Positions 814 through 49,280 of a stretch of 64,000 bases of DNA are shown here, in pieces. The notes under the pieces are model-generated. The model saw nothing but the letters and a program-made list of their open reading frames with translations, ran no database searches and had not been told where the DNA came from. Source of the DNA: Lactarius indigo (lineage: Eukaryota; Basidiomycota; Agaricomycetes; Russulales; Russulaceae); contig JAFKAC010000078.1 in the NCBI GenBank assembly GCA_025766275.1, forward strand, positions 62,001 through 126,000, written 5' to 3'. The position numbers and the translations under genes were made by a program. The first letter of the stretch is position 1. Each line of letters starts with the position of its first letter.

Positions 814-2767
814 CAGGTGTCCTGAAAACCCTCCTTCTTCCACAGTTGTTGGAGGATAATGTCTTTTACGTTGTCTGATTCTCCTGCTACTCCGTTAAGC
901 CAATCACTGGCGCGCTGTTGAGGGGGTACATCCTGGACCGCCCTGGTAGCGACTTCGGGTTCTTGTTGATGGTAGTCGGTGTCAATATACCGACTGGTTG
1001 ATGCTTGAGGTTGGTAGCTCCCTCGTGGTTGTCTACAGTCATGGGCCATGTGTCCGTCCTTTCCACAATTATAACAGGTGACTGGCCTTTGATTGTTACG
1101 TCCTCCTCCTCTCTGCAAAAATCCTCCCCTTGGTCGGTATGGGGGACGAGGGGCGAGTATGTCTTCGGCCCCTGCAAGTCGCCCTCGGATTTGGTCTGCA
1201 GAAGTATCCATGGCGTTTGGATCGCGGGGTAGATTTCTTGGTTGCCAAGAGCTTCTTGGCGGTCCTTGCCACTGTTGCGACTGGCGCGGGCGTCCTTGTC
1301 CTTGTCCCAGGGGAACTCCTTTGTTTAGTACCCGCTTTGAGGTGGAGGTATTGTTGCTGGCGAGTGGTGGCTGCTTCTTTCCACTCGCGATAGTTGCGGG
1401 GGTTGTCGAGGGTGTAGACCTTTTCATATAGGTCTTTTGGTAGCCCACTTGTGAATAGATCCAACGTTTGGGGATCGTCAAGTCTGTACTGAGCGCGGCG
1501 TATAAGCTGCTCAAACTGGGTGCAATACTCATCTAGGTTGCCCCCAATCATTTTGACTCCCTTCTTAAGTTCGTATTGGGCTTGTTCTTGTTCCATCGTA
1601 TTCTGGAAGCGCTGCATGAAGCTGTGCGTAACCTCGTTCCATAGTCCTTTACTTGTACGGGGTATTCCTGCTTGCGTCTGGCCGTTGAGCCAGGTGAGCA
1701 TGGCTAATACCCATTTGCTAACGTTGACGCCTTTGATGTAGGAGAGAAAAAGCAGGGCGCGCCGGTATGGGGTCACCATGATGCCTTCGTCAGCATTCAT
1801 ACCCCAGTAGACGTGCCATTGAGTGAGGAACGCTTCAACTTTGTTCTCCATCGAATACTGTAGGTGCTTCACCAGCCAGTTTGTTACTTGGAGGAATAAT
1901 GGGTCCTGCACCTGGTAGCCCTCCTCCGGGATGCCCTCCTCCTGGTGGTCCTCCTGGGAATCCTCCAGGAAATCCTTGAAATCCGGGTCCTCTTGATGGT
2001 GGTCCTCCTCCTCCAGGTAAGTCACCGGGGGGTCCGCCTCCTCCACTAGGAGGGTCAGCTACGTCGGGCCCAATGGCACGGTGGATTGCTACATCATCTT
2101 CGGTCATTCGATGACCCGTGTAAGGGTTGATGGGAGCTAGATTAGCTCGTGATTCTTCTGCGATGCGTCTTTGTTCTTCCAGGACTATTTGATCCCGTGC
2201 TTCAGTGGTGAGTTGTATCTCTTCTTCTGTAATGGTGGCAGTTGCCATTGCGACTGCTGGGCTGCGGATGTGAATTACTTCTGGTTCGATTTGGTGAATG
2301 GTGAGGGACTCAGTTTGTTGTATAATATGATCGCCAATAGCTCTCAAGCTGGCGTCTTCTACTGGTGTTGTTCCTCTGCTTGGGGATTGATTTTCAGAGG
2401 CTTCTCCTCTGCTAATTTCTTCATCTGTATGTTCTTGTGCTTGTCTGTCAATAGGACCGTAGTCGGCACGGCTATTAAGCTCTCATGCGTCGATGTCGCA
2501 ATTGTAATTTCTTCCTGCTGGTCGTACGATGTCCCAGCGATGGTCTATGGGGTTCCAAGTAATCTCAGTCCAACAGAGGTGTTCGAAATTGAACTCAACA
2601 GGTCGGAAACGGTTAGGACCGTTAAACTCTACGAAGTATCCGGTGTCTTCTCCTCGTTCTCTCCACTGGGCTGCTCCTAGAAATCTTGTAGGTACGTTGC
2701 AATCTCCTCGTCTTTCAATATGATAGGGACGGAACGACGTCCACTGATCTCTGGTCGAGTACGCCAC
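813..2767 (-). pseudogene. Retrotransposon Gag with CCHC knuckle, frame-broken
   Basis: Three overlapping frames together make one Gag. The N-terminal part (about 2767-1835) has a Pro/Gly-rich tract. The core (about 1850-1330) is a classical retrotransposon gag domain with YRRALLFLSYIKG and FMQRFQNT. The C-terminal part (about 1330-813) has the zinc knuckle CYNCGKDGHMAHDC near 1075-1035. Frame changes occur near 1840, where the N-terminal frame hits TGA just as the core frame begins, and near 1330. Both look like small indels rather than introns because no good splice sites flank them. Gag would form the particle and bind RNA. This copy should not make a full-length protein. Confidence 0.75.
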
Positions 2768-2788
2768 AATTGAGGATCTTGGTCTTAA

Positions 2789-3297
2789 TGTTACACTCCA
2801 CCGGCGTTAGTCCAACTTGGACTCGGGACAGGCGTAATCGACTTAGCAAGGGTAAGTGAATGGGGATCATGTATCAACCCAACATGAGCTGAACAGGGGC
2901 ACTACGGGCACACGCTGCAGCGATAAGATGAAGAAGGGTATCCCTTGGTGGATACGAACAGAGGCACACTTAGTCCAAGACTAAGGCAAGCAAAAGACGA
3001 GTCAAGAGGTGGATTGAAGAAGACCAAGATGGGGACTTCTTGGTCTTCCGAGTTAACTACTTATACAGATACGCGCGGGCTTTAAAGTGCCGCTAGAATG
3101 GTAAGTAACCAATAGCGTAACTAGCTCGAACCCTAGTACAGCTATCCTAGGAATGAGTCATGCGTGAGTCACAATTCACATGTAAACTACTATGCTGACT
3201 GATGCGAAGTAAGAGTCCATGACTAATGTTGATACTGGACCGTAGTCATAACCGGTCGTGAGTCGTGTGTAAGAGTCATCAAGTCCGTATCGTAACA
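2789..3297 (-). repeat. 5' LTR of the Ty3/gypsy element (509 bp)
   Basis: On the minus strand the segment starts TGTTACGATACGG and ends GAGTGTAACA, so its termini TGTTAC and GTAACA are perfect 6-bp inverted repeats, as expected for an LTR. It sits directly upstream of gag. A TATAA lies at about 3065-3061 on the minus strand and is the probable core promoter. The partner LTR is outside the window, so identity between LTRs and insertion age cannot be assessed. Confidence 0.75.
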
Positions 3298-3770
3298 CCC
3301 TTGCTCGCTCACCTCCTCCTCCCCCTCCTCCCCCTTGCTCACCCACCTCCCCCTCCTCATTGCTCACCTCCCCCTCCTCCTCGCTCGCCTCCCCCTCCTC
3401 CTCATCCCCTCACTCACCTCCTCAATCACCTCCTCCTCCTCCTCGCTCACCTCCTCCTCGCTCACCTCCTCCCCCTCGCTCGCCCTCCTCCTCACTCACT
3501 TCCTCCCCTCGCTCGCCTCCTCCTCCCCCTCCTTCTCCCCTCGCTCGCTCGCCTCCTCCCCCTCCTCCCCCTTGCTCGCCCACCTCCCCCTCCTCATCGC
3601 TCACCTCCCCCTCCTCCTCGCTCACCTCCCCCTCCTCCTCCTCCCCTCGCTCACCTCCTCGATCACCTCCTCCTCCCCCTCGCTCGCCCTCCTCCTCACT
3701 CGCTTCCTCCCCTCACTCGCCTCCTCCCCCTCCTCCCCTCGCTTGCTTACTCACAATTTGATTTCGCTAG
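3298..3770. repeat. Polypyrimidine CCTCCTCCCCCT-type low-complexity tract
   Basis: About 470 bp of almost pure pyrimidine on the plus strand, built from irregular CTC, CCT and CTCGCTCAC units. It lies between the gypsy LTR and the LINE target site. All three forward frames are open because of composition only, so the apparent Pro/Ser/Leu-rich reading frames here are not genes. Confidence 0.9.
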
Positions 3771-3790
3771 ACTTGGGAGGGTGCTCATGT

Positions 3791-3804
3791 GACTTTTGAT
3801 TATT
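3791..3804. repeat. LINE target-site duplication, left copy
   Basis: GACTTTTGATTATT, identical to 11578-11591. It abuts the poly(T) run that is the 3' poly(A) tail of the minus-strand LINE. Confidence 0.92.
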
Positions 3805-3999
3805 TTTTTTTTTTTTTTTTTTTTTTTTGGAGAGCGTTTTATTCCGGTAACTACCGTGTGCCTAATTACCGGTAATAAGTGCTAGATAGCAGGAGATTTA
3901 CCATCAGCCCTATCTAGCCCGCATGTAGCCGGGCCGAAGCCCAGAAGTGAGGGAAAATGTGTTTACGCACGCCCCATGGTGTTTGGGGTTGTGTGGGAC

Positions 4000-6900
4000 T
4001 CAGTGCACGTGTTCATCTCGGGTCCAGACGTTCCGTGCTCTCCTACCCACTAAAACCTCACAGTCGGTCATCCAGTTGGGCGGTAGTTCCCGTTCTTGGT
4101 TTAGGGCTGCTTTCCATGTGCTGTCTACTGACTGCACCATGGCACCGTTTCTCTTGACTTTTGTAGCGGTTATTTTGTCATTGGTGAGTCTTTCGTTGAT
4201 TATTCTTACCCATCGGTTTTTAATTTCCTGTGCCGAGTGTGTTTTCAGTTGTATTGAACGTTCGCACCTCAGTACCCAGATCAGGTATGCAGATTCGGAG
4301 ATGAGGATGTGGAGCAGCCGGTTGGGGCCAGAGAGGTTGGGTCTGTTTTGTTCCTCCTGGGCTTGTCGGTCTTGGTTTTCTGGTGGCACTAGAGCAAGGG
4401 AGCCGCAGCCTAGGATCGTTCCGAAGTTGATTTGGGGCCAGCTGTCCTGGGGGTGGGGCCATGTTACACGTGCCATCTCCCATATGAGTTTGACGGGTGT
4501 GGCAGGGCAGTTAACCAGTATGTGCTCCATTGTTTCTGTTTCGTGACATGTAGCGCACCACATCCTGTGTCCGTTTTCTGGTATATTTTCCCAGAATTCG
4601 CCCAGTCTAAAGATTCCATGCATGGCTTTGAACAGGTATTGTTGGATCTTTGGTCTGATCGCACAGTTTTCTGATGTTTTTCCAGATGGTTCCGGCTGTT
4701 TCTGGGAGCTTGTTGAATGTCAGTACAGCCGCTTTCGCGAGGTCGATGTTTTTCATGGTCGTTGGGCGCGAGTGGGGGGGGCGAAGGTCGCGTATGCCTC
4801 TATAGGCAGTGGCCTGTGACAGTGAGGCTAGTTTCGCGCCTTGGAGGTTGAATTCTGCTGGTATATCGAGGGGTAGGTTGTCTGGATCGTCTTTCTCAGC
4901 TCCTTCCCTTGCTAACTTGTCGCTTTCTTCGTTCCCCAGGATCCCATTGTGGCCTTTTACCCATTGGAAGGATGTCGTCGCTGTTCTCCTCTTTAGGATG
5001 TAGGCCGCTCTTTTAAATAGGGCCGCGTTTTCTATTCCGATCCAGCCGGCGTCCTCCCACTTGCCAAGGTTAGTCGTTAGCCCTTCTATGACATACTTTG
5101 AGTCTGTCTTTATCAGAATTGGCCAGAAGTTGGGGATTTTGCTGACTGCTGCGATTACAGCCGCGATTTCGCCTATCTGGTTGGATTGTTTGGGGCCTGG
5201 GATTCTGATCGCTTCATTTCTCGGGTCTTCTCGTCCGATCCACATGCCACTCCCACATCTCAGCGTTCGCCTTACCGTTGTTGAGGCATGCACCATCTGT
5301 ATAGATTGTTATCTTTTGGTGTCGCAGGTTCAGACCTACAGTATAGGGTCTGCAGGCTGGGATTGGGGGTGTTTCTGCTGGGCTGGTGAAGATCCTGAAG
5401 CATTCAGTGAGATCAGTTTTTACAGGTTATGGATGGGTCGAAGAGTATCTCCTCATCCTTCTCTTTAGCCCTTCGCAGTTTTGCCTTTTCATGTGCTGGG
5501 TGAGGGAGAGATTGTCAGTGTGGGTCACCTGGGTTCAAGGGGTTGAGCCTGGGGATGATGTTGTAGGATTCGGGTGAGTGCTTCCGCTGTGCATTTGTGT
5601 GGGTGTTGGCAGCCGTTTATTCGGTCCAGCATACAGTCTTCGCAGTCGCAGCGTGGAGTGGGTGTGTGGGGTATTGTGGGGGTAGAGGAGCGCAGCCTTG
5701 TGGAGGTCTTGATTAGGTCTGCCACGGTCTTAATGTTGTGGTTTTTGATTAGACATTTTGACTGACAGGTTATTCAGGGATCTTGGCTTGGATTTTATGT
5801 GGTACCATGCTGGGGAGGCTTGCGCGGAGGGTCGACGATAGGTGGATCGCTGCTAGGCTGGCTCCATGTTTTTTGGCAACTTTCAGCATCCTTGCTGTAT
5901 CGTGGCCTAGCAAGGCCGCTCTCTTGCCCCTGGTGGGGGGGGGCCAGTTCTGGAGGTAGCAGTTTATCAGGGCGAGAGGGGAGAGTCCTGGGCAGGGCCG
6001 CTGCGCTTATGGTTAGGTCTGTGACTGTTGCCCAAGTGGGGCAGGGAGTTAGAGAAGTTTAGGTATGATTTTAACCATCCGATCTCTATGGCTTCAGTTT
6101 CTGGCCTTGATGTCTAATAGGTTCAGTCCTCCTTCTTCGAGGGGGGCATGTAGGGCAGTCCATGGCTATGCGTGGTGGGGCAGTCTTCTCCCCAGATGAA
6201 GTTTCTAATCATTTTGGTAAATGCTGCTTCTATACTTTTTCGGCATGCCTTGGGCCCTTGCCAGGAATTGTGTGTGGCCACCAACTATGGCCTGTACGAT
6301 CAGCCTCTTTCCATACATGGTAGGTCTCATTTCCTCCCAGTTGTCAATCTGGCGTTTTGTCTTATCTATGACTGGTTCCCACGGAACTGCTACATCGGCA
6401 GTGGTTGCCTAGCCATGCTCCTAGGATTCGTACGGCTTCGCCATCTTCAGCAATCTTTATATTCCTTTCAAGGGTGGCAGTCTTCTCTGTTAAGCTTCCT
6501 TGATGTCATGATGGCCCAGTCTATGGTCCTCAGTTCCAATTGGTATGATTCTCTGTTTTCTCCATGTTGAACTTGGCGCCTGCTGCTTTACACCATTTTC
6601 CTAGGATTCGCTTGGCCACATCAAATTGGTCTCTAGCACTTAGGAAGAGGTTTGTGTCGTCTGCTGAAGAGGGTGACAATTAGTTTGTTAGGTAACCCCG
6701 GGATTTGGATTCCTTCTAGTTGGTCCATGTTCCGGAGTGTGCATGCTAGGGGTTCGATTGCTAGGTCGAAAGAGTGCGCAGGATAGGGGGTCCCCCTGTC
6801 TGACTCCTCTTGTCACCTTGAAGGGGGAGCTGAAGACTCTGTTTATGGCGACTTGGGTCTCTGCGTAGCGGTAGAGGGCTTTGACTGTGCTGGTGAATCT

Positions 6901-9081
6901 TCCTGGGAGGTTAAAGGACTCCAACATCTTCCACAGGTATTCGTGTCAGATTTTGTTGTAAGCTTTTTCCTGGTCTAGCACGACAATTGCTCCATTCTCC
7001 TCCATCACTTCTGTGTAGTTGATGATGGCTTTTGCCAGTCTAATGTGATCGAAGATGGAGCACTTTGGGATGAAGCCTGCTTGGTCAGGGTGAACTAGGG
7101 CATGTATGGGTTCTAGTAGCTGGAGGGCCATCGCCTTGGTGAGTAGTTTGTAGTCTGTGTTGAGGAGGGTTATTGGGCGGTAGTTGCATATTTTTGACGG
7201 GTCTTTCTTTTTAAAGATTGGGCACATCCAGCCAAGAGAAAACCCTGAGGTTTCATCAACGCTGAACTCCTGTATGTCTTGAAAGATGGTTGTGAGTGTG
7301 TTTATTATGTCGAAGCCTTGGGCTCCTGTGAGTGCCAAGCTGTCGTTCTGTTCTTTCAAGGCTTTCCATAGTTCGTATGTGCATCCGTCCATACCTGGGG
7401 CTGAACCGTTCTTGGACAGGTGGAGCGCCTTCTCGACTAGTTCAGGGGTTATTTTCCAGCTTTCATCTCTCCTTGGGTGGTTGGGAAGCTTTTGGTTCTG
7501 TGGGATCTCACGGAGCGTTTCCTCTAATTCCCTTTCATAGTCAGCGGGGCTTTGTCGGGTATCTATGTCTTGCTCCTGTAAGTTCATATGGTAGTTTCGG
7601 GCCAGCTCTGCCATTTGTTTGGTGTTGTGTTCAAATTGTGGGGGGGTTGAGTTGGGAATGCGGAGGCGGCATATGTAGTCCCTCGGTTTCTTTTTCTTGT
7701 ACTGTGCTGACCAGATTCTGCCTAGTTTCTCCCCATGGTTCGAGGCCATGGCTCTGAAGTACTTTTTGCAGCCAGATGCATCTAGTTTTTCTAGGTGGGA
7801 TAGTTCGCTTGCAAGAAAAGCTTCATTTGCTCTCAGGGAATTGTTGGCATCTAGCTCTGGGTTATTCACAAGGCTCTGTATGTCTTTGCTTAAATTTTTC
7901 CTCATTGTGTTACGCTTATCTTGTGAAGCTCTGTGCTTTTTCTTTATGAGGTCACAAATTTCTGTTTTGAATTCTTTCCACAGTAGTTGGGGGTTTGTTT
8001 CGCTTCGTGGTATGTTGTCTCTCTGTATCTTCTCTAGCTGGTTTTCTAATTTTTTGCCCCTTTTCTGGATTTCCATTAGAGTCTTCTTATCGTTCAGCAT
8101 GTGGGTCTTTAGGGACCAGTGTCCATTTCCGATTACCAGGGCCTCCGTGGGTGTGTACTTGACCATGGCTATCCAGTGGTCTGTTGGGACTGGCGTGGGG
8201 GCTATCTTCCATTCATAGGTGAGTCCATCGACTTGTCTTGCCACGTAAATTCTGTCAATGCATGATTGTATTTGTTGGCTGTTGATGTTTGCTCTGTAGG
8301 TGAAACACCTGTCTGTTGGGTTGTAGTGCCTCCAGGTGTCCTCTAGTTGATTCCAGTGTTGGAGGTCCCTTAGTGCTTCGACTGCAGCAGCATCATCTTG
8401 GTGGGCTGGGGCTTGGTCTATGGGGTCTTCTACTAGGTTGAAGTCGCCGAGTAGGAAGCTAGGGGGTCCAATGCTGTGGTCTTGGCTCAGTAGGTTTACT
8501 TGTTCCCAGAAGGTAGGGTGTTCTGCTTTACTGTTCGGGGCATAAACATTGATCAGGGTAGTCATCTCAGATTCCAGCCAGTCAATTTTGAGGGCTAGCG
8601 CGTGTCCTTCAATCAGTTCGCTCACAGTGCATTTTCTCAGGTTGATCAGAGTTTTATTAATGATGAAGGCGACGCCTGCAGACGCACAGGGGGTTTCAGG
8701 GTGGGGGGACATTAGGATGTCCATTTTGCGTCCAAAACAGTTTCGGACATTTTGAAGGAGCTCAAAGTCCATATGGGTTTCTTGTACTGCAAGGATGGCT
8801 ATATTATATGTATTAAGTGTTTTGTTAATCATAGACCACTTTTCTATGCCACTCATGTTGCTTGATGGTGTGGCAAAACCATTGAGGTTTAGGGAGGCTA
8901 TATTAATGTTCGCTTTGCGTTTAAGCACGTTGTGTGTGGTGTGGGATATAGTTGGGTCATTTTCAGTGGGGTAGTGCGGGTGGGTGCTCATATGTCTCCC
9001 GGTTAGATTTCGTACCGGCCTATCTGGTGGTAGGTCGGTGGTGGACAGCAGGCGAGAGGGGCCGATAGAGTGGGGGGGCAT
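4000..9081 (-). pseudogene. LINE ORF2: endonuclease, reverse transcriptase, RNase H
   Basis: The first frame, 9081-6946 (711 residues), starts with an APE-type endonuclease: NIASLNLNG, AVQETHMD, VYAPNS, GDFNLVEDPID and a TDHW active-site region. It continues into RT up to VVLDQEKAYNKI, where an in-frame TGA stops it. RT resumes immediately (VTRGVRQGDPLSCALF near 6780), then shifts frame. The catalytic FADD box near 6675 is split by one extra base, reading LFS-ADDT across frames. RNase H and a C-terminal CATCHETETMEHIL-C zinc-binding region follow. The protein would nick target DNA and prime cDNA synthesis there. The TGA fits a CGA-to-TGA transition, and the adjacent AYN replaces the usual AYD, fitting GAC-to-AAC. 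Confidence 0.88.
4607..5296 (-). pseudogene. RNase H domain of LINE ORF2
   Basis: An open stretch with the RNase HI signature in order: CGSGMWIG, QSNQIGEIAAV (catalytic Glu), TDSKYVIEG (catalytic Asp) and WVKGHNGILGNEESDKLA (His and Asp). It would remove the RNA strand during reverse transcription. It is joined to the upstream RT through degraded frames at about 5300-6650, and by a further one-base frame change near 4620 to the zinc-binding C-terminus. RNase H in this position supports the Tad1/I-group assignment. Confidence 0.85.
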
Positions 9082-9179: not shown

Positions 9180-10534
9180 CTACGTGTCACTACGTGGTGG
9201 AGCGGGGTGGTCTCTAATTTGTGTGTAACTAAGGTCTGATGAGGTGGCCGTTTTGGCCCCTAGTTCTAATTCCTCTTCCTCGGGCTCCGTTCTGTTCGCG
9301 GCATCTCTTGGGGCCATTCCACCCTTCAATGGTGGGGAAGGGGCAGAGCCCTCAGGGGTGATCGATGCCATGGCAGATACCACAGTGGTATGGTCTTGGG
9401 TCGGTGTAGCCAAGTCCATGCATGGGGGAGCCATAAGTACGTGAGGCGAGGTAGTCCCTCAGCCTGATCCATATGTCGTCGTTCTGGATAAGTCTTCCTA
9501 TGCCGTATATGTTGAAACGGGGCATAAGGGTGTCACTGGTGTCCTTAACATCGAGGTGGAGGATGTGCAGAGAGCTGAGGAAGTCTCGAATGGACAGGTA
9601 CATTTCCTGTCTTATGTCATCTGGGAGGGGGGTTGTTAGTTTGGTAATGAAGGCACATGTTTCATTGTCGGACCATACACATTCAACTATTTCCCACACT
9701 CCAGTATCTATGAGGGTGGAAAAGCCTTTGATGGAGAATAGAAAGCCAGGGCATGGCGGGCAGAGGTCAGTGACATGGAAGGTGATGGCCTGTGAGGACC
9801 AGACTCTGTGTTGGAGCAGTAAGTCCTGCTGCTTGGGAGTGAGGTTGAAGATGAGGAAGGTTGTCAGGGTCCGTTCCCATCTGATGGCTTCTTCATTTGG
9901 CTTCGGGGCTGAAACTCCGATGGTTTGGGATCCAGTGATCTCCGCTACTGCTGTGAAGATCCTGTTCTTGATACTTTCATGGAGTTCAGGGATCCTGGTG
10001 TCATTGTCGAAGGGGTGGGCCAGGAGTTTCTCGCCTTCTGCTTGCTCCCAGGCTGAGATGAGATCAAGATCAATGTGTTCCAAGGCAGCTGTGGGGCTTG
10101 TGGTGTGGATGAGGGGCATACTGGAGCTGGGACATTTTGTATATTTGTCGATTGGGTCCCTAGGGGAGATCTTCCCAGATGGGGAGGGCTTTCTTCCAGC
10201 AGCTGCCTCCAGGTGAGCACGTAGGGAGAGGGGGTTTGGGGCTGTGCCCAATACCTCTGGGATGTCGGATTCCATACTTATGTCTAAGGTGGTGTCCTGT
10301 TTGCTGGGGTGTGTTGGGGATGGTAGGGGGGTAGCCACGGGAGGGGGTGGCTGGGGGAGCCGGGGTGCCCTCATTCGGGAAAGCTGCCATGGTGAAGGGA
10401 GGGGGGGTGTTGCTGGGTTCTGAAGGGGGATATGGGTTGCTAGCCGGGGCATCCCAGGGCCCTTGTCTTATGGCACCTGCAGGGATTGCCAGTGTCATGA
10501 TGGCTGGGGTAGGAGGTATCAGCGCTGCGGGCAC
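9180..10534 (-). pseudogene. LINE ORF1 (Gag-like, zinc-knuckle protein)
   Basis: A Pro/Ser-rich N-terminus lies in two frames (10534-10160 and 10452 onward). The core follows in the frame ending at 9352, with the fold segments ITFHVTDLCPP and RDFLSSLHILHLD. The C-terminal knuckle reads CGICHGIDHP, then TGA, then GLCPF, so the stop sits inside the knuckle and fits a CGA (Arg) to TGA change. The acidic tail continues to 9180. ORF1 proteins of this clade bind element RNA. This copy would make a protein lacking the end of its RNA-binding knuckle. Confidence 0.75.
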
Positions 10535-11577
10535 GGATGCCGTTTGCTCTGTCTTGTCTGCTAGTGCTAATGTGCGTCAGTTGATGTGGGAGAGTTAGCA
10601 GTGTTGTGCTTACTCATTCGTTTTTTGCAGGTTTTGTGGGCTTCTGCCGTGGCTGCTGCTGGGTTGCTGGAGGCCGCCATCCTGGCGGCGGTGGTGGATC
10701 TGGTGGTGGCGTGGGGGGGATCTGCCTGAGGTGTGATCATTGGGGGGTCAGCGCGAGGCTGGGAGGTGGGAGGGGCTGCAGTACTCATTGTTTAGGCGGC
10801 TGGGTAGGTGGTTGACTCGATGGTTTAAAACATTTGAGGGGGGATTGGGTGTTGTTCGTCACCGGATGGGGTCAGGGTCAGGTTTGCATTTGTGCCAGGG
10901 GGTAGGGTACTGCGTCTTAGAGTGTCCCTGTCATTTCGAGGTGGGTCGGTCTTGCAGCTAGTGGTTGTTCATTTTGTCGCGACGGTGTTTGGTGTCAAGA
11001 GGTACGAGCTAGCTATTCGAGGGAGTTAGCTTTATTGGTTGGCAGGGGGGTGCGGTTACTTAGCTCAGGGACAGAATTTACCATGTTTCCTGGTTAGGTG
11101 GTGTTCAGGAGTTTCGGGTGGTGCAAGGGTATGGGTTTGGTGGCGAGGTGGGGGCGAGGTGGGGGGTGCTTAGTTAGTTGGGTGGTGTTGTGTTGTGTTT
11201 TAGTCGTTCGGTCTTAGGCTGTGGGAGGGTTAATCATCTAGTTATAGGGGGTGGACTTGCTGGGCTTGTCAGGTCTCTTTGTGGGTGGGGGGACATTCCT
11301 TTGTCGTGTTTACTTTTAGGAGTTGGGGTGTAGTCACTCGCTTGGGTTTTTGTTGGGTTAAGGGGGAGGAGGCGGTGTGTTGGTGGTGGAGTGTACGTTC
11401 TCGTCACACATCTTGGGTGGCGGTTCATACATGGATACAGAGGGTATTCCTGGGATCACTACTATTGTATGAGGGGGCCGCTAGTGACCGAGGATGCATG
11501 AGCATCCACCCTTGTCCCGACTTAGCATCGTGGAAAATTCCGCCCATGGTGGTGGTTGCGGTTCAAGGGGCCCCCCC
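10535..11577 (-). other. LINE 5' untranslated region and ORF1 leader
   Basis: G-rich on the plus strand (C-rich on the element's sense strand), with no convincing conserved protein. It ends at the run of seven C before the right target-site duplication. An internal promoter would be expected here in a LINE, but I see no specific element. Confidence 0.6.
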
Positions 11578-11591
11578 GACTTTTGATTATT
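11578..11591. repeat. LINE target-site duplication, right copy
   Basis: GACTTTTGATTATT, an exact copy of 3791-3804. It marks the 5' junction of the LINE. Confidence 0.92.
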
Positions 11592-11929
11592 AGCTAAGAA
11601 ACAAAAAAGTTGTATACATGTAAATATAATGTTATTTATTAGTTAATAGTTGCCGCCTGAGTAAATAAAAAAAGTGTGTTTGGACGGAGATCAAACTTTG
11701 GCGACGGTCCAGAGCGGACCGGACCGTGAGATCTTTGCGAAAAGTACGCAACTGCCTCTGACAGTCATTCACACATCCATCTTTGCTTCATCAGAGTTCT
11801 TCACAAAGCACCCCAAGCTTAAACAACCAAATTCCTTATATCTTGGGATGGGATCTAATTCAAGATCTGCAACTGATATAGACGATCGACCTCAGTTCGT
11901 TCAAACGGCTTCCTCTCGCCGAGCATAGA

Positions 11930-12448
11930 CTGACCGAATCACGCACAGAGTTATTTATTTGAAAGGTATATGGAACCTACCATTGCTTCTCAAAAGAATT
12001 GATATAGTTGCGTAGAAATATCTGTCGATTTTATCAAGACACGTCCCACATCCGACCTCGAGCTGGTTTTCAAAGACGATGCCGGTGTCACACACAAGTC
12101 TAACAAATTCAAGAACGGCGACCTTGTTCGCTGGGACCCCAACATGTTCGTGTCATTAGCCATGTTTTTTCCCTCACCCGTCGAGTGCTAATTATTCCGC
12201 GTAGCTATGTCAAGACCCACACAAAAGCTACGTTGACCATCGAGCGGGCGCTGTTCAAAATAAGGGTCGCTAAACTTTCCGTCGAGTTTATGCCATATAA
12301 GTTTGGAGACGATAAGGTCGTCCGCCTGGAAGGTGGTGGTGCCTTTCCTCCCAGTACAATCCGCTTCTTACTGAGCGGCTTCACAGATAGCGACCATCGC
12401 GTTGCCGTGACTTTTGTTTACACGAAATCCAAATGCGTGGGTCTTTGA
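11930..12448 (+). CDS. C2-like domain protein, 3' exons only
   Basis: Three exons fit in phase: about 11930-11971 (after a CATAG acceptor), 12016-12145 and 12205-12448 (TGA). The introns are GTATAT...GCGTAG and GTTCGT...GCGTAG. The encoded segment has ISVDFIKTRPTSDLEL, then HKSNKFKNGDLVRWD, then LTIERALFK and VEFMPYKFGDD. This alternation of strands and a THKSxKFxxGxxxRW turn resembles C2-like domains seen in fungal multi-domain proteins; that assignment is from memory of the pattern. No start codon is visible. The LINE inserted 340 bp upstream may have removed or separated the 5' exons. It lies 100 bp before the GTPase gene on the same strand. Confidence 0.5.
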
Positions 12449-12549: not shown

Positions 12550-13532
12550 ATGGACATAGAGCAACCCCGTCGTCGAATTCCAGAAATCAAGTTCCGCGTG
12601 CTTATTATAGGCAGAGCAAACGCAGGAAAGACGTCTATCCTGCAGAGAATCTGCGAAACAACAGAGAGCCCCATCATTTACCGGGGAGGGGAGGAAGTAC
12701 GTAGTCCAACCTTTTTGTCCGCGAACCTGATCTCACTGCCGACCAGGTTAAACTCGATCCGTCCATGGATGTAAGTGATAGTAGGATTCTCTTCGGTCGT
12801 CTTAAACACGAAGCCAGCGAGGCGAGCACGGAATCGACGACGAACTCGTGTTCTCTAATCATAAGGGCTACGTTTTCCACGACTCGTGTGGAATTGAGGC
12901 AGGAAGCGCCAAGGAACTCATGATTCTGCAAGAGTTCATTCGACGCAAGTGTGGAGAAAGGCGACTGGCAAACAGATTGCATGCGATATGGTTTGGACTG
13001 TCAAGTGTTCACGATTATGACAACTAACGGTCATGGTTTTTGAGGTACTGCGTCCCAATGGACAACCAACGGCCACAGCTCGATCTCAAATTTTTCAAGG
13101 ACATCTGTCCTGACGGAAACGGTGTGTCATTACGGACGTCCGTGACTAGATTAACCAGATAATTTTCAGTCCCTATCGTTGCTGTATTTACAAAATATGA
13201 TCAATTCCTACGAAATGTCCAAATCTATGTGGAAGATTTCGGAGGCCCAGATGACAATGTATCGGATGTGGCGGAGAAACAATTTGAAGAGCACTACTTG
13301 CGTGCACTGGATGATGGTGTTAGATTCGTACGATTAGAAAGTGAGTGGAGGGCCAGATACGAGAGTTACGTGCTAATACTTTTGGGCAGAAATGCACAAG
13401 CAAAATATGGGCTGCGATAAGCTTATTGAGACGACAGCTGCAGCTTTAAATGACGACATCGTCGGATTGATGCTTTTGGCCGTGCAGAACGGTAATTTAG
13501 CATTAAGTGTTAAAGAAGCTTTGAGGCGGTGA
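12550..13532 (+). CDS. P-loop GTPase (fungal G-domain family), copy 1
   Basis: Six exons join without any frame break: 12550-12696, 12747-12770, 12818-12990, 13045-13121, 13170-13340, 13390-13532, giving 244 residues. The Walker A/G1 motif GRANAGKT is at residues 21-28, a DSCG in the G3 position is in exon 3, and TKYDQF (G4) is at the start of exon 5. HAIWYCVPMDN is assembled across the exon 3/4 junction. The family is greatly expanded in agaricomycetes and its cellular role is unknown; nucleotide binding is inferred from motifs. The paralog at 48286 has the same exon lengths apart from 12 nt in exon 1. The TGA stop lies within a perfect GTGAGT donor, so an alternative spliced tail (exon 13583-13655) is possible and would lead into the repeat array. 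Confidence 0.85.
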
Positions 13533-13582
13533 GTGTGCTAATGGGAGTGCAATGTGAGCAACAATGACGATGAGCATTGCAG

Positions 13583-13655
13583 TACCGGTTCCCATACTTA
13601 CATGGGGGTCAGAGATATAGTTCGGGAGTGTCTCATCCCGTTTCCACACATCTGG
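13583..13655 (+). other. Possible alternative C-terminal exon of GTPase copy 1
   Basis: If the donor at 13529 (CG|GTGAGT) is used with the acceptor ending at 13582 (ATTGCAG), a 73-nt exon follows in phase. It encodes a tail containing VRDIVRECLIPFPHIW and ends before another GTGAGT at 13656. From there the next acceptor can be TACTAG at 13727, the first acceptor of the microexon array, or GTACAG at 13694, which gives a stop almost at once. A hydrophobic FPHxW tail is plausible for this family but is not proven by the sequence. Confidence 0.45.
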
Positions 13656-13727
13656 GTGAGTATCGATAAGGCAATACAGTAAATTGTGGTACAGGATTGA
13701 TAATCTTTGATACTGCCTGACTACTAG

Positions 13728-16167
13728 TGGGTGAGTGGCTGCCGTGGCTCTCTGTGTTTCAAATCTGCTGACGATGGCTGTCCTCGGCTATCCAGAGAGT
13801 GAGTGGCTGCTGTGACTCTCTGTTTCGAGCCAGCTGACGACAGCTTTCCTCGGCTCTCCAGAGAGTGAGTGGCTGCTGTGGCTCTCTGTGTTTTGAGCCT
13901 GCTGATGACGGCTGTCCTCGCCTCTCCAGGATGTGAGTGACTGTCGTGTCTATCTGTGTTTCGAGCCTGCTGACGACAGCTGTCCTCGGCTCTCCAGGGA
14001 GTGAGTGGCTGCTGTGACTCTCTGTGTTTCGAGCCTGCTGACGACAGCTGTCCTCGCATCTCCAGAGAGTGAGTGGCTGCCGTGACTCTCTGTGTTTCAA
14101 GCCTGCTGACGACAGCTGTCCTCGCCTCTCCAGAGAGTGAGTGGCTGCCGTGACTCTCTGTGTTTCGAGCCTGCTGACGATGGCTGTCCTCGCCTCTCCA
14201 GAGAGTGAGTGGCTGCCGTAGCTCTCTGTGTTTCGAGCCAGCTGATGACGGCTGTCCTCGCCTCTCCAGGATGTGAGTGGCTGCTGTGACTCTCTGTGTT
14301 TTGAGCCTGCTGACGACAGCTGTCCTCGCCTCTCCAGAGAGTGAGTGGCTGCCATGACTCTGTGTCTCGAGCCTGCTGACAACAGCTGTCCTCGCCTCTC
14401 CAGAGAGTGAGTGGCTGCCGTGACTCTGTGTTTCGAGCCTGCTGACAACAGCTGTCCTCGCCTCTCCAGGAAGTGAGTGGCTGCCATGACTGTCTGTGTT
14501 TCGAGCCTGCTGATGACGGCTGTCCTCGCCTCTCCAGGATGTGAGTGGCTGCTGTGACTCTCTGTGTTTCGAGCCTGCTGACGACGGCTGTCCTTGGCTC
14601 TCCAGGAAGTGAGTGGCTGCCGTGACTCTGTGTCTCGAGCCTGCTGACGACAGCTCTCCTTGCCTCTCCAGAGAGTGAGTGGCTGTCGTGACTCTCTGTG
14701 TTTCGAGCCTGCTGACGACGGCTGTCCTCGCTTCTCCAGCTCGTGAGTGGCTGCCGTAGCTCTCTGTGTTTCGAGCCTGCTGACGATGGCTGTCCTTGGC
14801 TCTCCAGGAAGTGAGTGGCTGCCGTGACTCTCTGTGTTTCGAGCCTGCTGACGACGGCTGTCCTCGCATTTCCAGGGAGTGAGTGGCTATCATGACTCTC
14901 TGTGTTTCGAGCCTGCTGACGACGGCTGTCCTTGGCTCTCCAGTTTGTGAGTGGCCGTCGTGGCTCTCTGTGTTTTGAGCCTGCTGACGACAGCTGTCCT
15001 TGGCTCTCCAGTTCGTGAGTGGCCGCTGTGACTCTGTGTTTCGAGCCTGCTGACAATGGCTGTCCTTGGCTCTCCAGAGAGTGAGTGGCCGTCGTGGCTC
15101 TCTGTGTTTCGAGCCTGCTGACGATGGCTGTCCTTGGCTCTCCAGAGAGTGAGTGGCCACCGTGACTCTGTGTTTTGAGCCTGCTGACGACTGCTGTCCT
15201 CGCCTCTTCAGGAAGTGAGTGGCTGCCGTGACTCTCTGTGTTTCGAGCCTGCTGACGATGGCTGTCCTCGGCTCTCCAGAGAGTGAGTGGCTGCTGTGAC
15301 TCTCTGTGTTTTGAGCCTGCTGACGACAGCTGTCCTCACATCTCCAGGGAGTGAGTGGCTACCATGACTCTCTGTGTTTCAAGCCTGCTGACGATGGCTG
15401 TCCTCGGCTCTCCAGAGAGTGAGTGGCTGCTGTGACTCTCTGTGTTATGAGCCTGCTGACGACAGCTCTCCTCGCATCTCCAGGGAGTGAGTGGCTACCA
15501 TGACTCTCTGTGTTTCAAGCCTGTTGACAATGGCTGTCCTCGGCTTCCCAGGAAGTGAGTGGTCGCCGTGGCTCTCTGTGTTTCGGGCCTGCTGACGATG
15601 ACTGTCCTTGGCTCTCCAGTTCGTGAGTGGCTGCTGTGGCTCTCTGTGTTTTGAGCCTGCTGATGACGGCTGTCCTCGCCTCTCCAGATAGTGAGTGACT
15701 GTTGTGTCTATCTGTGTTTCGAGCCTGCTGACAACAGCTGTCCTCGCCTCTCCAGAGAGTGAGCGGCTGCCATGACTCTGTGTTTTGAGCCTGCTGACGA
15801 CAGCTGTCCTCGCCTCTCCAGCTCGTGAGTGGCTGCCGTGACTCTCTGTGTTTTGAGCCTGCTGACGATGGCTGTCCTCGCCTCTCCAGAGAGTGAGTGA
15901 CTGTCATGTCTATCTGTCTTTTGAGCCTGCTGACGACAGCTGTCCTCGGCTTTCCAGAGAGTGAGTGGCTGCCGTGACTCTCTGTGTTTCAAGCCTGCTG
16001 ACGACGGCTGTCCTTGGCTCTCCAGGAAGCGAGTGGCTGCCGTGGCTCTCTGTGTTTCGAGCCTGCTGATGACGGCTGTCCTCGGCTCCCCAGGTCGTGA
16101 GTGGCTGCCATGTGTCACTGTGTCTTGAGCCAGCTGATGACTCTTGCCCTCGGATCTTCAGGATGTG
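13728..16167 (+). repeat. Tandem array A: 36 intron-like 66/68-bp units separated by 3 nt
   Basis: GTGAGT-type donors occur at 13731, 13799, 13865, 13933, 14001 and so on to 16165: 37 donors and 36 complete units. Most units are 68 bp; the 66-bp ones lack one CT in GACTCTCTG. Each unit reads donor GTGAGT, a CTGAC branch-site match about 24 nt before the end, a pyrimidine tract, and acceptor CCAG or TCAG. Exactly 3 nt then precede the next donor. The intron-like part is 63-65 nt, a normal length for this genome. The 3-nt spacers vary: AGA 15 times, GAA 6, GAT 4, GGA 4, TTC 2, CTC 2, and TTT, ATA, GTC and TGG once each. The donor at 16029 is GCGAGT; all others are GT. It may be a chain of single-codon microexons or an expanded intron minisatellite. 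Confidence 0.9.
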
Positions 16168-16960
16168 AGTTACCATATGCCTTTCTGCGTCTTTTTACCT
16201 GTTGATTATACCTGTCTTTGACTATTCATCAATCTCACTCATCCCTGATCACCTAGAGCGTGCGTGCTTGCTCCCTTTTCTAGCTTGCTAATGGTGTTTA
16301 CCTCTAGTTTTCCAGTTTGTAAGTGCTTTCTGTATATTCACCGAACCAAAAATCTGACTTGTCCTTCAGACAGTGCAGATTATGTCACTGCCCGCCATTC
16401 GAAATGTGTTCTTTTTGTACTACATTCATCTATCCCTGGCTTACGATTTTTATCTCTCTAGCTTACTGCCACCGGTCTTGGCACCAGTTATCATTTGATT
16501 CTCGGTATTTCACATCATTATCTTTAGCGCCTATTTGACTTTTGTCTAAGCTCTCATCCTCATCTTGAAGCATGCCAGTTTATTATGTCTCTCAAACATG
16601 TCACCTGAATTAGCTTTAACCCATGCGGACATTTGCTATTGGGATGCAAACATTGCCTCGAAAATTCAACAATACCTTGCTGCACCTCAAGAGCACTCTG
16701 ACGAGTCATTTGCAAGCTTTATTATGTCCACTGATTTCGTTCGTTTGTTTTTATATCTTTTAATATATTGTCTCAATCTTTTAGTACAGTCCTACTCTTC
16801 GGTAGAAACCACATTTTCACAGACATGATCGTTGGTTTAGGCCGTTCTGGGAATCAATATTCCCATGCAAGTTTATCTTCTTACTGGAGTTGAGCAACAC
16901 CGCATGGAAGATAGTTAGATCTATTATTTAATGGTCTAGGAATCGTGTACTATTTGAGCC
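16168..16960 (+). other. Putative downstream exons following array A
   Basis: The acceptor-3 nt-donor pattern continues twice beyond the regular array: CTAG|AGC|GTGCGT at 16257-16259 and CCAG|TTT|GTAAGT at 16316-16318. Larger blocks are then shared with the region after array B. One is an exon-like segment after TGCAG at about 16379. Another, at about 16565-16735, encodes LALTHADICYWDAN and KIQQYLAAP. A third, at about 16795-16850, encodes RWFRPFWESIFP. The second copy (19.6-20.3 kb) has diverged in nucleotides but keeps similar residues in the same frame (LTQAELDYREAN, KIQRHL, RFKRFWKPVFP), supporting real coding exons. I do not recognise the protein. Confidence 0.45.
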
Positions 16961-19012
16961 ATGTATGATGTGTACGATCGAACTCGATGTCATAGACTGC
17001 ATCCACCCCCAATCATTCGTCCGCTCACGCTTCAGTTGCCACCCTCTCTGCAGCCTCTACTATCACTAGTCCGTACAACCACAGCGGGTGCACACATCTC
17101 AGCGGTCAAAGTGGTAGATGCAGATGTAGAATACACAGTGGCATTAAAGGGTACAACACCTGCCATATCTGTGTGCCGCTTGATCGTGTGATTGAGCCTG
17201 GTGACCTTTTTGGGGTCTGGGACAGGGAGCCGTGTGGGGTGCCCTCATCTGACAGTGCGATCTCCGCAAAGCTATGTCTTTGAAACGTACTGTCAGAGGT
17301 GCTCTGTCCAGCTTATGGGCGCCATGCATAGGAACGTAACCAGGGTTTCGTTCGCCTGCTCATGGATCAGCTTGAATTGGTGGTGCTGTGAGGAATTGGC
17401 CCTCCTCGTCTTCCCTGTATACATGCGCGAGTTCGTGCAAGGGCTGTAGGCATGTGGTTCTGTCGTCTGTTTGAGGCCGGTAATGACTAGACACGATGTT
17501 GGTGATGTTATTGAGCAAGCACTCTCTTGAATCGGACCCTGGTGTCCTGACTGAGTCGGATGAGCGGGGTGCCTAGGAGTTAGGGGCACACAGCGCAGAA
17601 TGAGTAGAATGTGGATATTGTAGGTCTGGCCCACATGCTCTTGGGCATTTTCTGGGTGGAGACAATGATATCTCAAGCATCGAGACCAAGTGAAGCTACT
17701 CAATAATACAAGTGTGCAGGTTTCACGGTGGACCAGAGGGAAATTTATGGCATGGACCAGAGCTGCGCAATGGCCGATATACAAGTACTCTACACCCGAC
17801 TCAAGGCTTCTCGAGAACTATTGCCTCAAATGGGTATTCGCTTGCAAGTGCGTTCAAACAAGTCCAAAGAGACGCATCGCGGAAGGAAGGTCACTGGTCC
17901 AATGTTTTTCCTCTCCGAATTCTCCCCTTGCCGATCTTTATGACGCGACAGTGCTACTTTCCACTAGTTCTGCATTGCATTTGTAGTTCAACGTGCCATA
18001 ATTGTATCACTGTGTGACTCCGAGACTCTCCGTCGTCCAGGTGAGCATGTCAGTCGCTACCACTTTCAGCGAGTCAGTCTCATTCGAAACAGCTTTGTTT
18101 GCGTCAACGACTCGCCGCCATCGATATCTTTTCACACATCGCCAGAAATGGCTTCCTGTCGCTTTTCAATCCCCCCTGCAGTACTGAAGTGTGCAGCGTC
18201 CCTACCCTTTATTTAATGCCCACAACTTCAAGTTCATCCCACTCCAGAACACAGGGCACTGTGTCATAAGGACTAACACGCGTAAACCTCAGTTCCTAAG
18301 CTATATTTGGTCTAACCTATGTCAACACTCCCTCCTCTCTGACCAGGGGTCCCGCCACCACCAAACCGGAAACGTCATGCGGTCAAAGTTCCTCGCCGAC
18401 TTCAAATACTTACTACACTAGTACTCGTAATGTCTAGTAAAGACTCCAAACCATCCCCATCGCCGCTTTGCGCATAACACCGATGCGATTTCTCCATCTG
18501 TGTTGCCGGACGAAATCAGGATACTATCGCGATCTCGTCTTCGGTGGGCAACGCCGTGCCGTGGTCGATGTCTCACAGCGGACTCTCTCCTCGCGCCCAC
18601 GCTTGGATGGCGGGCATCCACGCCATTGCAGAAGCAGGATAGCAGGAGATGACCTCGAGTTTGAAGCCCCAGAGAAGGTCCATGCCAACGCTCATTGGTC
18701 TGTCCATGTTGTCCCGGTAGCCGCTAAGCCTCGCGGGTGCAAAGCTTGGGGTGGTCGCAGAGGTAGATGCAGACGCAAACGCGGCACAGCAAGGTGGAGG
18801 CTAGGAGCACGCTGTCCGCTGTGCGTGTGCGGAAGGACAGCTCCAACGAGTCTTTCGGCCTGGTGACCTTTTCAGGCCAAATACGGGGAGGCATGCATCG
18901 GCCTGTGCAATTTTCGTGAAGCTCCGTCCTTAACGCATCGAGTCAGAAGAATGGGACTGGAGGATGTGGGCAAGTGAACGAACACCAAACGAGGCGCGGA
19001 AGGTCCTGTCCA
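16961..19012. other. No secure gene; possible decayed third copy of the array gene's 5' part
   Basis: Short frames only. Parts of 17039-17320 resemble 18690-19013, just before array B. Shared words include GCGGGTGCA, GGTAGATGCAGA, CCTGGTGACCTTTT and CTGTCCAGCT. At 17320 the sequence corresponding to the first array acceptor is followed by ATGGGC instead of a donor, so no array follows. This suggests a truncated duplicate, but the similarity is patchy. Confidence 0.3.
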
Positions 19013-19013
19013 G

Positions 19014-19642
19014 CTGGTGAGCAGCTGTGGTGACTTGGTACATTTCGAGCCTGCTGACGATGGCTGTCCTTGGCTCTCCAACATGTGAGTGGTTTCCAAA
19101 ATTTCAAGCTTACCGGCAATAGCTGTCCTCGGCTGTCCAGTTGGTGAGTGGTTGTTGTGGCTCAGTGCGTTTCAAGCTTAGTGATGACGGCCATCCTCGG
19201 CTGTCCATCATGTGAGCAGCTGCTGTGGCTCAGTGCATTTCAAGCCTACCGACAACGGCTGTCCTCTGCTCTCCAGTCCGTGAGTGGCTGCCATGGCTCG
19301 GTGCTTTTCAAACCTACTGACGACAGCCATCCTCGGCTCTCCAGAAAGTGAGTGGCTGCCGTGGGTCAATGCGTTTCAAGCCTACTATGACGGCTGTCCT
19401 TGGCTCTCCAGTTTGTAAGTGGCTGCGTTGTCTCAGGGCGTTTCAAGCCTACTGATGACAGCTGTCTTTGGCCTCTAGTTGGTGAGTGGTTGCAGTGATT
19501 GGGGCCTTTCAAGCCTCCTCATCAGGCCTATCCTCGGCTCTCCAGGAAGTGAGTAGCTGTTTCCTCGGTCTATTTCTACACCTGTTGATCACGCTTGTCC
19601 TTGACCTTCCATTGATCCTACTCATTCCTGGCCCTCAAGCGC
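19014..19642 (+). repeat. Tandem array B: diverged intron-like units with 3-nt spacing
   Basis: Donors lie at 19017, 19085, 19144, 19212, 19280, 19348, 19415, 19482, 19549 and 19643. Each is preceded by a 3-nt spacer (CTG, CAT, TTG, CAT, TCC, AAA, TTT, TTG, GAA, CGC) and then by AG, except two positions where AG has become AA or AT. Units are 59-94 bp. Interiors differ substantially from array A and from each other, yet donors (GTGAGT, GTGAGC, GTAAGT, GTGCGT) and the 3-nt spacing persist. The last units align with the end of array A (GAA, then AGC in A and CGC in B). Confidence 0.75.
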
Positions 19643-20390
19643 GTGCGTGCCGCATGCACTTCAAGTTCTTTCCAGCCTGTTAATCGTGTTTAGCTTTGGT
19701 TATCTTCTTTGTAAGTGCTCCCCGTATGTTCACTCAACCAAGTATAAGGCAATGCAGGCTACGTCATTTTCCACCCTTCAAAATGTGTTATTTTCGTATC
19801 ACAACCATCTTTCTCTGTCGCTTATGATATTTATTTCTCTAGCTCACCCACAAAAGTCATCGTGATCCTCATTTGATCTTTGGTATTGCACTCTATCGTC
19901 TTGAGAGCGTATTTAACCTCTGTGGAAGGTGCTATCATTATCTTCAAGCATACCACGTTCTTACGACTCTCGGGCCTCTCAGCCGAATCCGTACTGACTC
20001 AGGCGGAGCTGGACTATCGAGAGGCGAATGTTGACTTGAAAATTCAACGACACCTCACGAGGTCTTCTCACTAGAAAGACTCTGTTGTGCTATCTGCACG
20101 CTTTATTATGGCTACGGATATTGGTTCTTTTTTACTCTTGCGTCTGTTATGATAATATCTAATCATGCTTCTAGGGCTATCTCAGTCCCCACATCGGTCC
20201 TTGGATGAGCTTTTAGTGCCCGCCCAATCTTCTGTCGAAACACACGTGCATAGAAAAGACCATCGGTTTAAACGGTTTTGGAAACCCGTATTTCCGCGCA
20301 CGTCTTGAGGGTCACCACAAGGAAGGTTTAATAGATGCTGTGTCGGGTGGTCCAGCAATTGTGTAGTCGAGCGTATGATGTATATGTCAT
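19643..20390 (+). other. Putative downstream exons following array B
   Basis: Diverged duplicate of 16260-16960. It contains a segment at about 19950-20075 encoding LTQAELDYREAN and KIQRHL, and one at about 20170-20310 encoding RFKRFWKPVFP. Reading frames are conserved between copies better than the surrounding sequence. The product is unknown. Confidence 0.4.
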
Positions 20391-48285: not shown

Positions 48286-49280
48286 ATGCACATGCAACAA
48301 CCCCGTCTTGAAATTCCAATGTTCCCGTTCCGAGTCCTTATTGTAGGAAGGGCAAATTCAGGAAAGACGTCCATCTTACAAAGTGTCTGCGACACAACGG
48401 AGAGCCCTATTGTTTATCGCCGAAATTATCGGGGAAAGGAGAAGGTACAAGCATTTTGTCTGGAGGCTGATCTCACTGTGGACCAGGTTACCCTTGACCC
48501 GTCTATGGATGTCAGTGGCAATAATACTTCTCTTCTGTTGCCTCTAAATGTGCAGCCAGCGAAGCGAGCAAAGGATCGACAACGAACTCATGTTCTCCAA
48601 TCACATGGGTTATGTCTTCCACGATTCTCGTGGGATTGAGTCAGGCAGCGCAGAAGAACCTGAGATTTTTCAGGAGTTCATCCGACGCAAGTGTGGAGAA
48701 AGCCAACTGCAAGACAGATTGCATGCAATTTGGTTGGACTCTTCCACGTTCGTGCGTTCATGATTATGGCAACTGACGGACATATTTTGAGGTACTGCAT
48801 CCCAATGGACAACCAACGACCACAGCTCGATCTTAAATATTTCAAGGACATTTGTCCTGACAAGAATGGTGCGTGGTTTCGAATGTTCGTGGCTGTATTT
48901 AACACAGTAGTTCCAAGTGCCTGTCATTGCTGTGTTTACTAAGTACGACCAATTCCGCAGAAATATCCAAATCCATTTAGAGGACTTCGGAAGCCCAGAT
49001 GACAATGTGTCTGATGTGACGGAGAAACTATTTCAAGAGCACTACCTGCGTCCCCTTGGTGATGATGTTAAATTCGTGCGATTAGAAAGTGGGTCCAGAA
49101 TTGACGGCTGGTTTTACGTGCTGAATTTCTTCGGTAGAAATGCACTGGAAAAATAGGCACTGCAGTGAACTTATTGAGACGACGGCAATGGCCTTAAATG
49201 AGGATGTCGTCGCATTGATGTTTTTAGCCGCGCAGAGGGATGATTTAGGACTCGGTGCTGAGACAGTTTGGAACTGGTGA
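48286..49280 (+). CDS. P-loop GTPase (fungal G-domain family), copy 2
   Basis: Six exons (48286-48444, 48487-48510, 48560-48732, 48792-48868, 48918-49088, 49138-49280) give 248 residues. GRANSGKT (G1) lies at residues 21-28, HDSRG is in the G3 position and TKYDQF forms G4. Exons 2-6 have the same lengths as in the gene at 12550 (24, 173, 77, 171, 143 nt). HAIWYCIPMDN is assembled across intron 3. The protein probably binds GTP; its role is unknown. It stands alone between members of the membrane-protein array, apparently inserted with the surrounding spacer. Unlike copy 1, no donor overlaps the stop codon and no array follows. Confidence 0.87.

Follow-up and report, generated by a model that had tools for sequence, protein, structure and literature searches.

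This study concerns a 64,000-nucleotide stretch of the genome of the fungus Lactarius indigo (GCA_025766275.1, contig JAFKAC010000078.1, positions 62,001 to 126,000 of the forward strand), hereafter called the window, and a GTPase gene in it that appears to contain a long chain of exons of only three nucleotides (nt). The window contig (C268) belongs to a 90.3-Mb genome of 291 contigs, from which other loci, denoted by L-numbers, were taken. Both its short introns and its GTPase family have a fungal look. The GTPase domain was read from seven exons (approximately 12550-12696, 12747-12770, 12818-12990, 13045-13121, 13170-13340, 13390-13528 and 13583-13655), the limits of which are our reading of the DNA and the true N-terminus of which is uncertain. 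The last of them closes in phase 0 (...GVRDIVRECLIPFPHIW) before the intron that enters the array, and the exon beyond the array comprises 42 codons. The features of the window are collected in Table 1.

Table 1. Features of the window, with strand and the basis on which each was placed.
Feature	Position	Strand	Basis
GTPase-domain exons with ordinary introns	12550..13655	+	own reading of the DNA; paralogue match exon by exon
Intron entering the array, GTGAGT...CTAG	13656..13727	+	sequence reading
Candidate one-codon exons (39): WRRDGRRRDRREDERLEGFFRRERGRGEFIRLRREVDSF	13728..16318	+	junction scan, parses, stop count
Similar introns of 63 or 65 nt, GTGAGT...CTGAC/CTGAT...CAG, separating one-codon exons	13731..16161	+	sequence reading, repeat finder
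Three diverged introns (92, 56, 51 nt) around AGC (16257) and TTT (16316)	16165..16369	+	array parse
Final exon opening in phase 0 and encoding the conserved C-terminus, TVQIMSLPAIRNVFFLYYIHLSLAYDFYLSSLLPPVLAPVII followed by TGA	16370..16498	+	paralogue comparison
3' half of an array gene, detached and decaying, with a similar tail and about 11 units	18991..19760	+	repeat finder, acceptor inspection
Further GTPase copy of this family lacking an array, seemingly cut off past the G domain (limits approximate)	48286..49280	+	genome protein search
Open reading frame of 478 amino acids crossing the array, probably a side effect of the repeat	13724-15160	-	list of open reading frames
Zinc-knuckle gag-like open reading frame	813-1532	-	by eye
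RNase H-like open reading frame	4607-5296	-	by eye
Endonuclease/reverse-transcriptase-like open reading frame	6946-9081	-	by eye

A pattern scan of the window found 39 consecutive [CT]AG-NNN-donor junctions between 13725 and 16324, and Tandem Repeats Finder reported a tandem repeat at 13731-16170 with a period of 68 and 36.1 copies. The triplets begin with TGG at 13728, continue with 36 more from 13796 to 16164, and end with AGC and TTT; all 39 are in phase 0 and none is TAA, TAG or TGA. The initial annotation, made from the letters of the window, had proposed about 39 single-codon exons in a row, two of them past the regular array, and no stop among the phase-0 triplets, and our counts agree with it on each of these points. 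It had also given every unit a GTGAGT donor and an intron of 63-65 nt. The donor is indeed GTGAGT at 35 of the 39 junctions, and the other four are GTGAGC (after 15756), GCGAGT (after 16026), GTGCGT (after 16257) and GTAAGT (after 16316); the stated length fits the regular introns but not the last three. New relative to that annotation are the GTPase reading frame that closes in phase 0 at 13655, the conserved last exon that opens in phase 0 at 16370 and the decaying second array at about 19011-19710. Unit spacing (68, 66, then 95 and 59) is variable because the introns change in length while the triplets do not. Array ends matching these diverged 3' introns are present in many paralogues. The gap between acceptor and donor is three nucleotides at all 39 junctions, not the zero nucleotides of a recursive-splicing ratchet point.

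The window GTPase scores 21.9 bits against PF01926 (MMR_HSR1), exactly the curated cut-off of 21.9 in Pfam, and the GTPase of L030 reaches 25.9 bits, as expected of a P-loop GTPase of the PF01926 kind. By inspection against the motif consensus, we take GRANAGKT, DSCG and TKYD in the window protein to be G1, G3 and G4. WD40 was not among the Pfam matches of the window and L030 proteins, for which the GTPase domain was listed. In the last exon the maximum 19-residue Kyte-Doolittle mean is 1.39 in the window, which is only moderately hydrophobic, and 2.23 in L030, so that a membrane anchor would be no more than a guess. The array had been annotated as one gene for a short, variable and charged peptide. 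The one-codon series stands, but it would encode an internal segment of a GTPase followed by a conserved last exon, not a free-standing peptide, and the gene is one of a family spread over many contigs.

Searched at the protein level, the genome yielded 95 exon matches, which by our own reading correspond to about 50 gene copies, some of them haplotype or segmental duplicates. All 23 of the 23 regions fetched around GTPase matches carried a chain of 15-77 strict junctions. When weaker splice sites were allowed and exon length was fixed at 3 nt, chains could be traced to 84 units in L030 and L031, 77 in L018, 70 in L026 and L027, 59 in L023 and 53 in L011. The last exon was recognizable, in phase 0 after AG, in 24 of 26 loci, the distant L030 included (ITHAMSLSIISEVLFSYYGDVLSLLPLTIFLSTILLVPAATI, compared with TVQIMSLPAIRNVFFLYYIHLSLAYDFYLSSLLPPVLAPVII in the window); the parses of L003 and L013 stopped before they could reach it. 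Half of these exons (12 of 24) end at the same place, and their conservation is one of phase and sequence, not a measured ratio of nonsynonymous to synonymous substitution rates (dN/dS). Genome-wide patterns of paired one-codon junctions gave 70, 4 and 17 matches, with 0 for each reversed-pattern control, and nearly all of the matches listed fall at GTPase loci. A first pattern scan had given 221 matches, of which part were listed; all of the patterns require a one-codon junction and are thus blind to lone introns in other genes. Junction pairs at C231:150720 and C231:244056 were tied to no GTPase match and may represent diverged or orphan arrays. The 84-codon segment of L030 and L031, unlike the other parsed arrays, has a hydrophobic core rich in cysteine (SVLLVCCLCCFCPICIPCCLCNCF), flanked by charged stretches.

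Because the regularity within one tandem array could have been copied from a single founder, the comparison across loci matters. Twenty-six arrays were parsed by dynamic programming with a free choice of exon length from 1 to 60 nt (L018, L030 and L031 being among those covered partly), and 994 of the 1011 inferred exons were 3 nt long, within the size range of microexons with flanking splice sites (3-30 nt). In the portion of L030 covered, where the introns are much diverged among themselves (about 0.5 in an ungapped comparison), 47 of 50 exons had this length. The 17 exceptions ranged from 6 to 59 nt, and several hold a complete acceptor or donor that the parse had passed over. Stop codons were counted in 26 parsed arrays (window, L001, L003, L009-L031) after 15 end triplets belonging to the last exon had been removed, and none was found among 1186 triplets. 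When five near-duplicate arrays were dropped, 94 stops were expected in the 910 non-redundant triplets, and the minimum in 2000 position-wise shuffles was 73. From 1.5 to 10 stops were expected per array, and there was none in any, L030 included. Two of the parses are incomplete: that of L022 is without about nine units and that of L013 stops before 15 further strict junctions.

The splice sites were compared between arrays in 13 pairs, with the sites defined on one partner only, which is fairer to them than the diversity within arrays. Eight pairs were summed (L026/L027, L009/L010, L016/L017, window/L012, L024/L025, L019/L023, L018/L029 and L011/L013), and five were left out of the sum as they reuse an array or are nearly identical. 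Acceptors differed at 13 of 1053 nt (1.2%) and donors at 24 of 2098 (1.1%), compared to 1395 of 19156 (7.3%) in the introns; the triplets differed at 344 of 1050 nt (33%), a value inflated by misalignment at unit gains. Between L030 and L031 there were no exon differences in 252 nt and seven intron differences in 4517. The introns range from 52 to 88 nt, and 759 of 793 contain a match to the branch-site consensus YTRAY, with the branch A at -25 in 697.

Codon choice in the arrays also differs from that in the ordinary exons. A codon of the form NAG at a junction would create an acceptor of the NAGNAG type. Among lysine, glutamate and glutamine codons, NAG accounts for 9 of 145 in the family A arrays, the window's own kind, whereas the ordinary exons of these genes have it in 85 of 178 (p 9e-18), and GTN codons are likewise rarer in the arrays (2.8% vs 7.9%). 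The exon triplets are C-poor and A-rich, and the introns A-poor. The idea that splice signals purely set the codons was weakened, however, by the arginine codons, which are mostly AGA in family A (113 of 128) and only CGA in the second subfamily (L032-L034), and by the commonness of GTC in that subfamily. Copying of units accounts better for the narrow codon set.

The window offers its own comparison in the detached array. At about 19011-19710, the YAG acceptor is absent at 4 of about 11 units (CAA, CAT, AAG and TTC stand there), three of which are without any AG, compared to none of the 39 units of the main array. The genome protein search gave no GTPase match upstream of this array (19.0-19.7 kb), and it looks like a control free of constraint. 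The copy at 7820-8364 of L012 keeps the acceptor, before CAT, that was lost here. These data bear on the view that the main array is a non-coding minisatellite within one large intron, grown from an intron plus three exon bases, so that the spliceosome would jump from the donor at 13656 to the acceptor at 16369 and join the GTPase to the last exon. The array is a tandem repeat, its similar sites would allow long-range pairing in frame, and the conserved last exon fits as well. However, a skipped array needs neither the absence of stops (0 of 1186) nor a low divergence of splice sites; exons of 3 nt beside drifting introns and the avoidance of NAG would be unneeded, and the array that seems unconstrained does lose its acceptors. 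We regard this explanation as improbable. A plain unconstrained satellite was rejected in view of the stops, the splice sites and the exon length.

If the triplets are codons, the place where variation sits is of interest. Pairwise diversity within 21 arrays was 0.67, 0.68 and 0.63 at the three triplet positions and mostly 0.1-0.35 in the intron. Within arrays, 448 pairs of units match perfectly over the 20 nt to either side of the triplet. The triplet itself differs in 328 of these pairs, in 180 at every one of its bases, and 324 of the differences are nonsynonymous and 4 synonymous; the repeats are thus homogenized while their codons are diverse, as in the HNWD genes discussed below. Unit-by-unit alignment, which favours similar introns, gave common triplets at 9 of 31 units in L024/L025 (aligned introns 97.4% identical), 20 of 40 in L019/L023, 17 of 25 in window/L012 and 38 of 44 in L016/L017 (introns 99.7%). 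Alignment of whole arrays exaggerates triplet divergence at unit gains and losses, giving 43 of 120 nt for L016/L017 compared to 6 of 44 triplets by unit. Therefore, our claims on triplets rest on the unit alignment and the flank-identical pairs, and those on splice sites on the test between arrays. Replacement of single triplets without their introns was partly supported only: in seven pair comparisons in which arrays recur, 20 triplets were changed and 54 were not where both flanking introns were at least 98% identical, and half of the changed triplets (10) have flanks unique in the first array.

The junction scan also had matches on C218, C240 and C82, where the introns are unrelated in sequence. 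Upstream of the L032 array lies a second GTPase subfamily (PF01926, 30.0 bits), and L033 starts inside a GTPase of the same kind; NACHT appeared only in the Pfam search of the L032-derived protein, and there below the cut-off, and the combination of WD40 with NACHT was not found in the proteins compared with Pfam. The three arrays L032-L034 contain 141 one-codon exons with introns of mostly 66 nt, and no stop was found in 141 triplets, where 6.0 were expected and none of 2000 shuffles was free of stops. The intron consensus of this family B (L032, L033, L034 and L035) starts GTGAGTCGCTCTCTCTG and is unrelated to that of family A. Homopolymer changes in the introns of L035, which lies on a small contig, suggest assembly error or decay.

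The arrays could have originated not by duplication of units of intron plus codon but by intron invasion, in which introner-like elements entered an older, uninterrupted exon at every codon boundary; this would be compatible with a coding array. The introns are alike within an array and differ between families A and B, and L030 reads like an ordinary protein, with an acidic stretch and the core SVLLVCCLCCFCPICIPCCLCNCF. Nevertheless, a spacing of every codon in one phase would be hard to achieve by insertion, and close copies differ by whole units (46 in L016 and 49 in L017 by the fixed-length parse). Moreover, the pattern matches listed lie almost wholly at GTPase loci, though the patterns do not see lone introns. 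Such an origin seems rather unlikely to us.

The minus strand could instead encode a long repeat protein through the array. It has the frame of 478 amino acids and 543 open codons in the window, and up to 941 open codons in L016. But the longest open stretches sit in the homogenized arrays, and stops across the three minus frames number 66-81 in L030, 38-49 in L018 and 21-34 in L029. We rejected this candidate, as the frames are not conserved, and consider it extremely improbable.

That each unit adds one codon if spliced, as was first annotated, is favoured by the absence of stops, the 3-nt exons under free length, the conservation of splice sites, the avoidance of NAG, the diversity of triplets, the phase of the last exon and the existence of family B. 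As far as can be read from sequence, the array is probably a protein-coding segment of the GTPase in which every exon is one codon and splicing proceeds stepwise, one codon per intron, and we give this reading a probability of about 0.8. We infer that the chain is spliced, in order, and yields a protein, that its units change by recombination, and that the segment serves as a recognition surface.

Under this reading, each YAG-NNN-GTGAGT junction would act as a ratchet point that retains three nucleotides, and introns of about 65 nt would be removed successively by intron definition. Removal of intron n would join one codon to the growing upstream exon and expose donor n+1, and 39 such steps (up to 84 in paralogues) would yield a segment, variable and largely charged, that links the GTPase domain to the conserved C-terminus. 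Since a gap of three nucleotides between acceptor and donor leaves no room for two spliceosomes, simultaneous removal is unlikely. As every intron lies in phase 0 and no stop codon occurs, the frame survives when a unit is added, lost, exchanged or skipped. Recombination between the similar introns would homogenize them and shuffle the codons, unequal exchange, which they invite, would add or remove residues harmlessly, and selection would keep the splice sites intact and the codon series diverse.

The same array might be mainly a device of alternative splicing, in which any donor is joined with any later acceptor to give a mixture of in-frame peptides. The units do share phase 0 and similar signals, and no combination meets a stop. 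However, constitutive inclusion would explain the low divergence of all sites just as well, and ordered removal would limit the choice, so that we find this role doubtful, though worth considering.

Several observations weigh against the coding, stepwise-spliced array. To our knowledge, serial removal of 39-84 introns is unprecedented. The triplets in one array are largely mutual copies, so that stop-free counts overstate independence, and the narrow codon set within arrays points to the copying of units, not to selection site by site. AGA is common although it places AG directly past the acceptor, and GTC is common in family B. The zero diversity at AG and GT within arrays arises partly by construction, as the parse demands them. 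In the two pairs with conserved unit order, the triplets diverge close to what intron divergence predicts (L026/L027, 64 of 68 common and 4 different; L009/L010, 37 of 41 and 4), which indicates that rapid codon change accompanies unit turnover. One altered acceptor in L022 gives a 1-nt exon, and indels in L035 hit exons, leaving a 2-nt and a 4-nt exon and one TGA in the parse (1 of 161 in family B). Of the last exons seen at 24 loci, eight continue beyond the usual stop (L010, L016, L017, L018, L021, L024, L025 and L029), and four are frameshifted or cut short (L001, L014, L026 and L027). An excess of third-position changes was not clear in the first 20 codons of the last exon in six pairs. 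Finally, two array-less GTPase copies were seen, in L009 and in the window at about 48.3-49.3 kb, where no chain of at least 4 strict junctions was found.

Elsewhere in the window, retroelement-like open reading frames were recognized by eye on the minus strand (813-9081). Beside them, the region 10001-12000 has a strong strand skew of G over C (0.32) and of T over A.

A 3-bp micro-exon is reportedly present in homothorax of Drosophila. For the 1-nt exon of Arabidopsis APC11, where there is no room for two spliceosomes, the passages we drew on propose intron definition combined with recursive, stepwise splicing (PMC4674806). Such 3-nt and 1-nt microexons show, like the array, that exons of at most one codon can be spliced, but they are isolated, not 39-84 in a row, and form no variable series of codons. 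At recursive-splicing ratchet points, as described in part of a further source, an acceptor adjoins a donor and removal of one segment exposes the next donor (PMC8605326). These points usually keep zero nucleotides in the mRNA and serve long introns, whereas the array junctions would keep one codon and the introns are short. Micro-exon genes of schistosomes form fast-evolving families over many small exons. As far as is known, the small exons of these genes, and those of bicycle and megacycle in aphids, each exceed one codon and vary in length. The aphid genes likewise, in the text consulted, are fast-evolving protein families on many small exons, with more than 100 microexons in megacycle genes (PMC9168663). 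Unlike the array, the aphid and schistosome genes are not tandem repeats, and they belong to a different phylum and protein family.

In fungi, introner-like elements are near-identical spliceosomal introns that multiply in genes, according to the excerpt used (PMC4457414), and one gene of Cryptococcus acquired two introns through expansion of a repeat, again from part of the report (PMC2395259). Introners sit in unrelated genes, and the excerpt describes no one-codon chains; the Cryptococcus case added two introns only. Functional microexons in filamentous fungi are stated, in the portion of PMC11121469 consulted, to have been undescribed before that paper. The closest likeness in behaviour is to the HNWD genes of Podospora, including het-d and het-e, for which the part of the source consulted reports that WD repeats are homogenized by concerted evolution and exchanged, that four codons per repeat are under diversifying selection and that repeat number is variable (PMC1805685). 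There the homogenized repeat is the WD unit of a NACHT protein; in the array, which belongs to a GTPase gene, the homogenized part is the intron, and one codon per unit would reach the protein. This analogy, together with the size of the family and the differences between close copies, leads us to infer that the segment may form a recognition surface in allorecognition or in a process like immunity. Single exons of 3 nt or 1 nt, ratchet points, introners and families with many microexons are thus already known, and a full-text search of open-licence papers found no gene with consecutive one-codon exons.

Exons so small are usually deemed hard for the spliceosome, and dozens in a row, if true, would mean that splicing by intron definition is able to work processively and in order, like a ratchet. 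Evolvability would then be split from coding: the introns would hold the homology for recombination, the codons would hold the variation, and phase 0 would guard the frame. If transcripts confirm it, a gene design of one codon per exon would be without precedent found in print in the open-licence literature. We tentatively suggest, as a possibility that falls short of an even chance, that this is a new gene architecture, in which a splicing ratchet, introns as recombination homology and codons as free modules would provide a hypermutable, frame-proof tail for a GTPase family in self/non-self or pathogen recognition.

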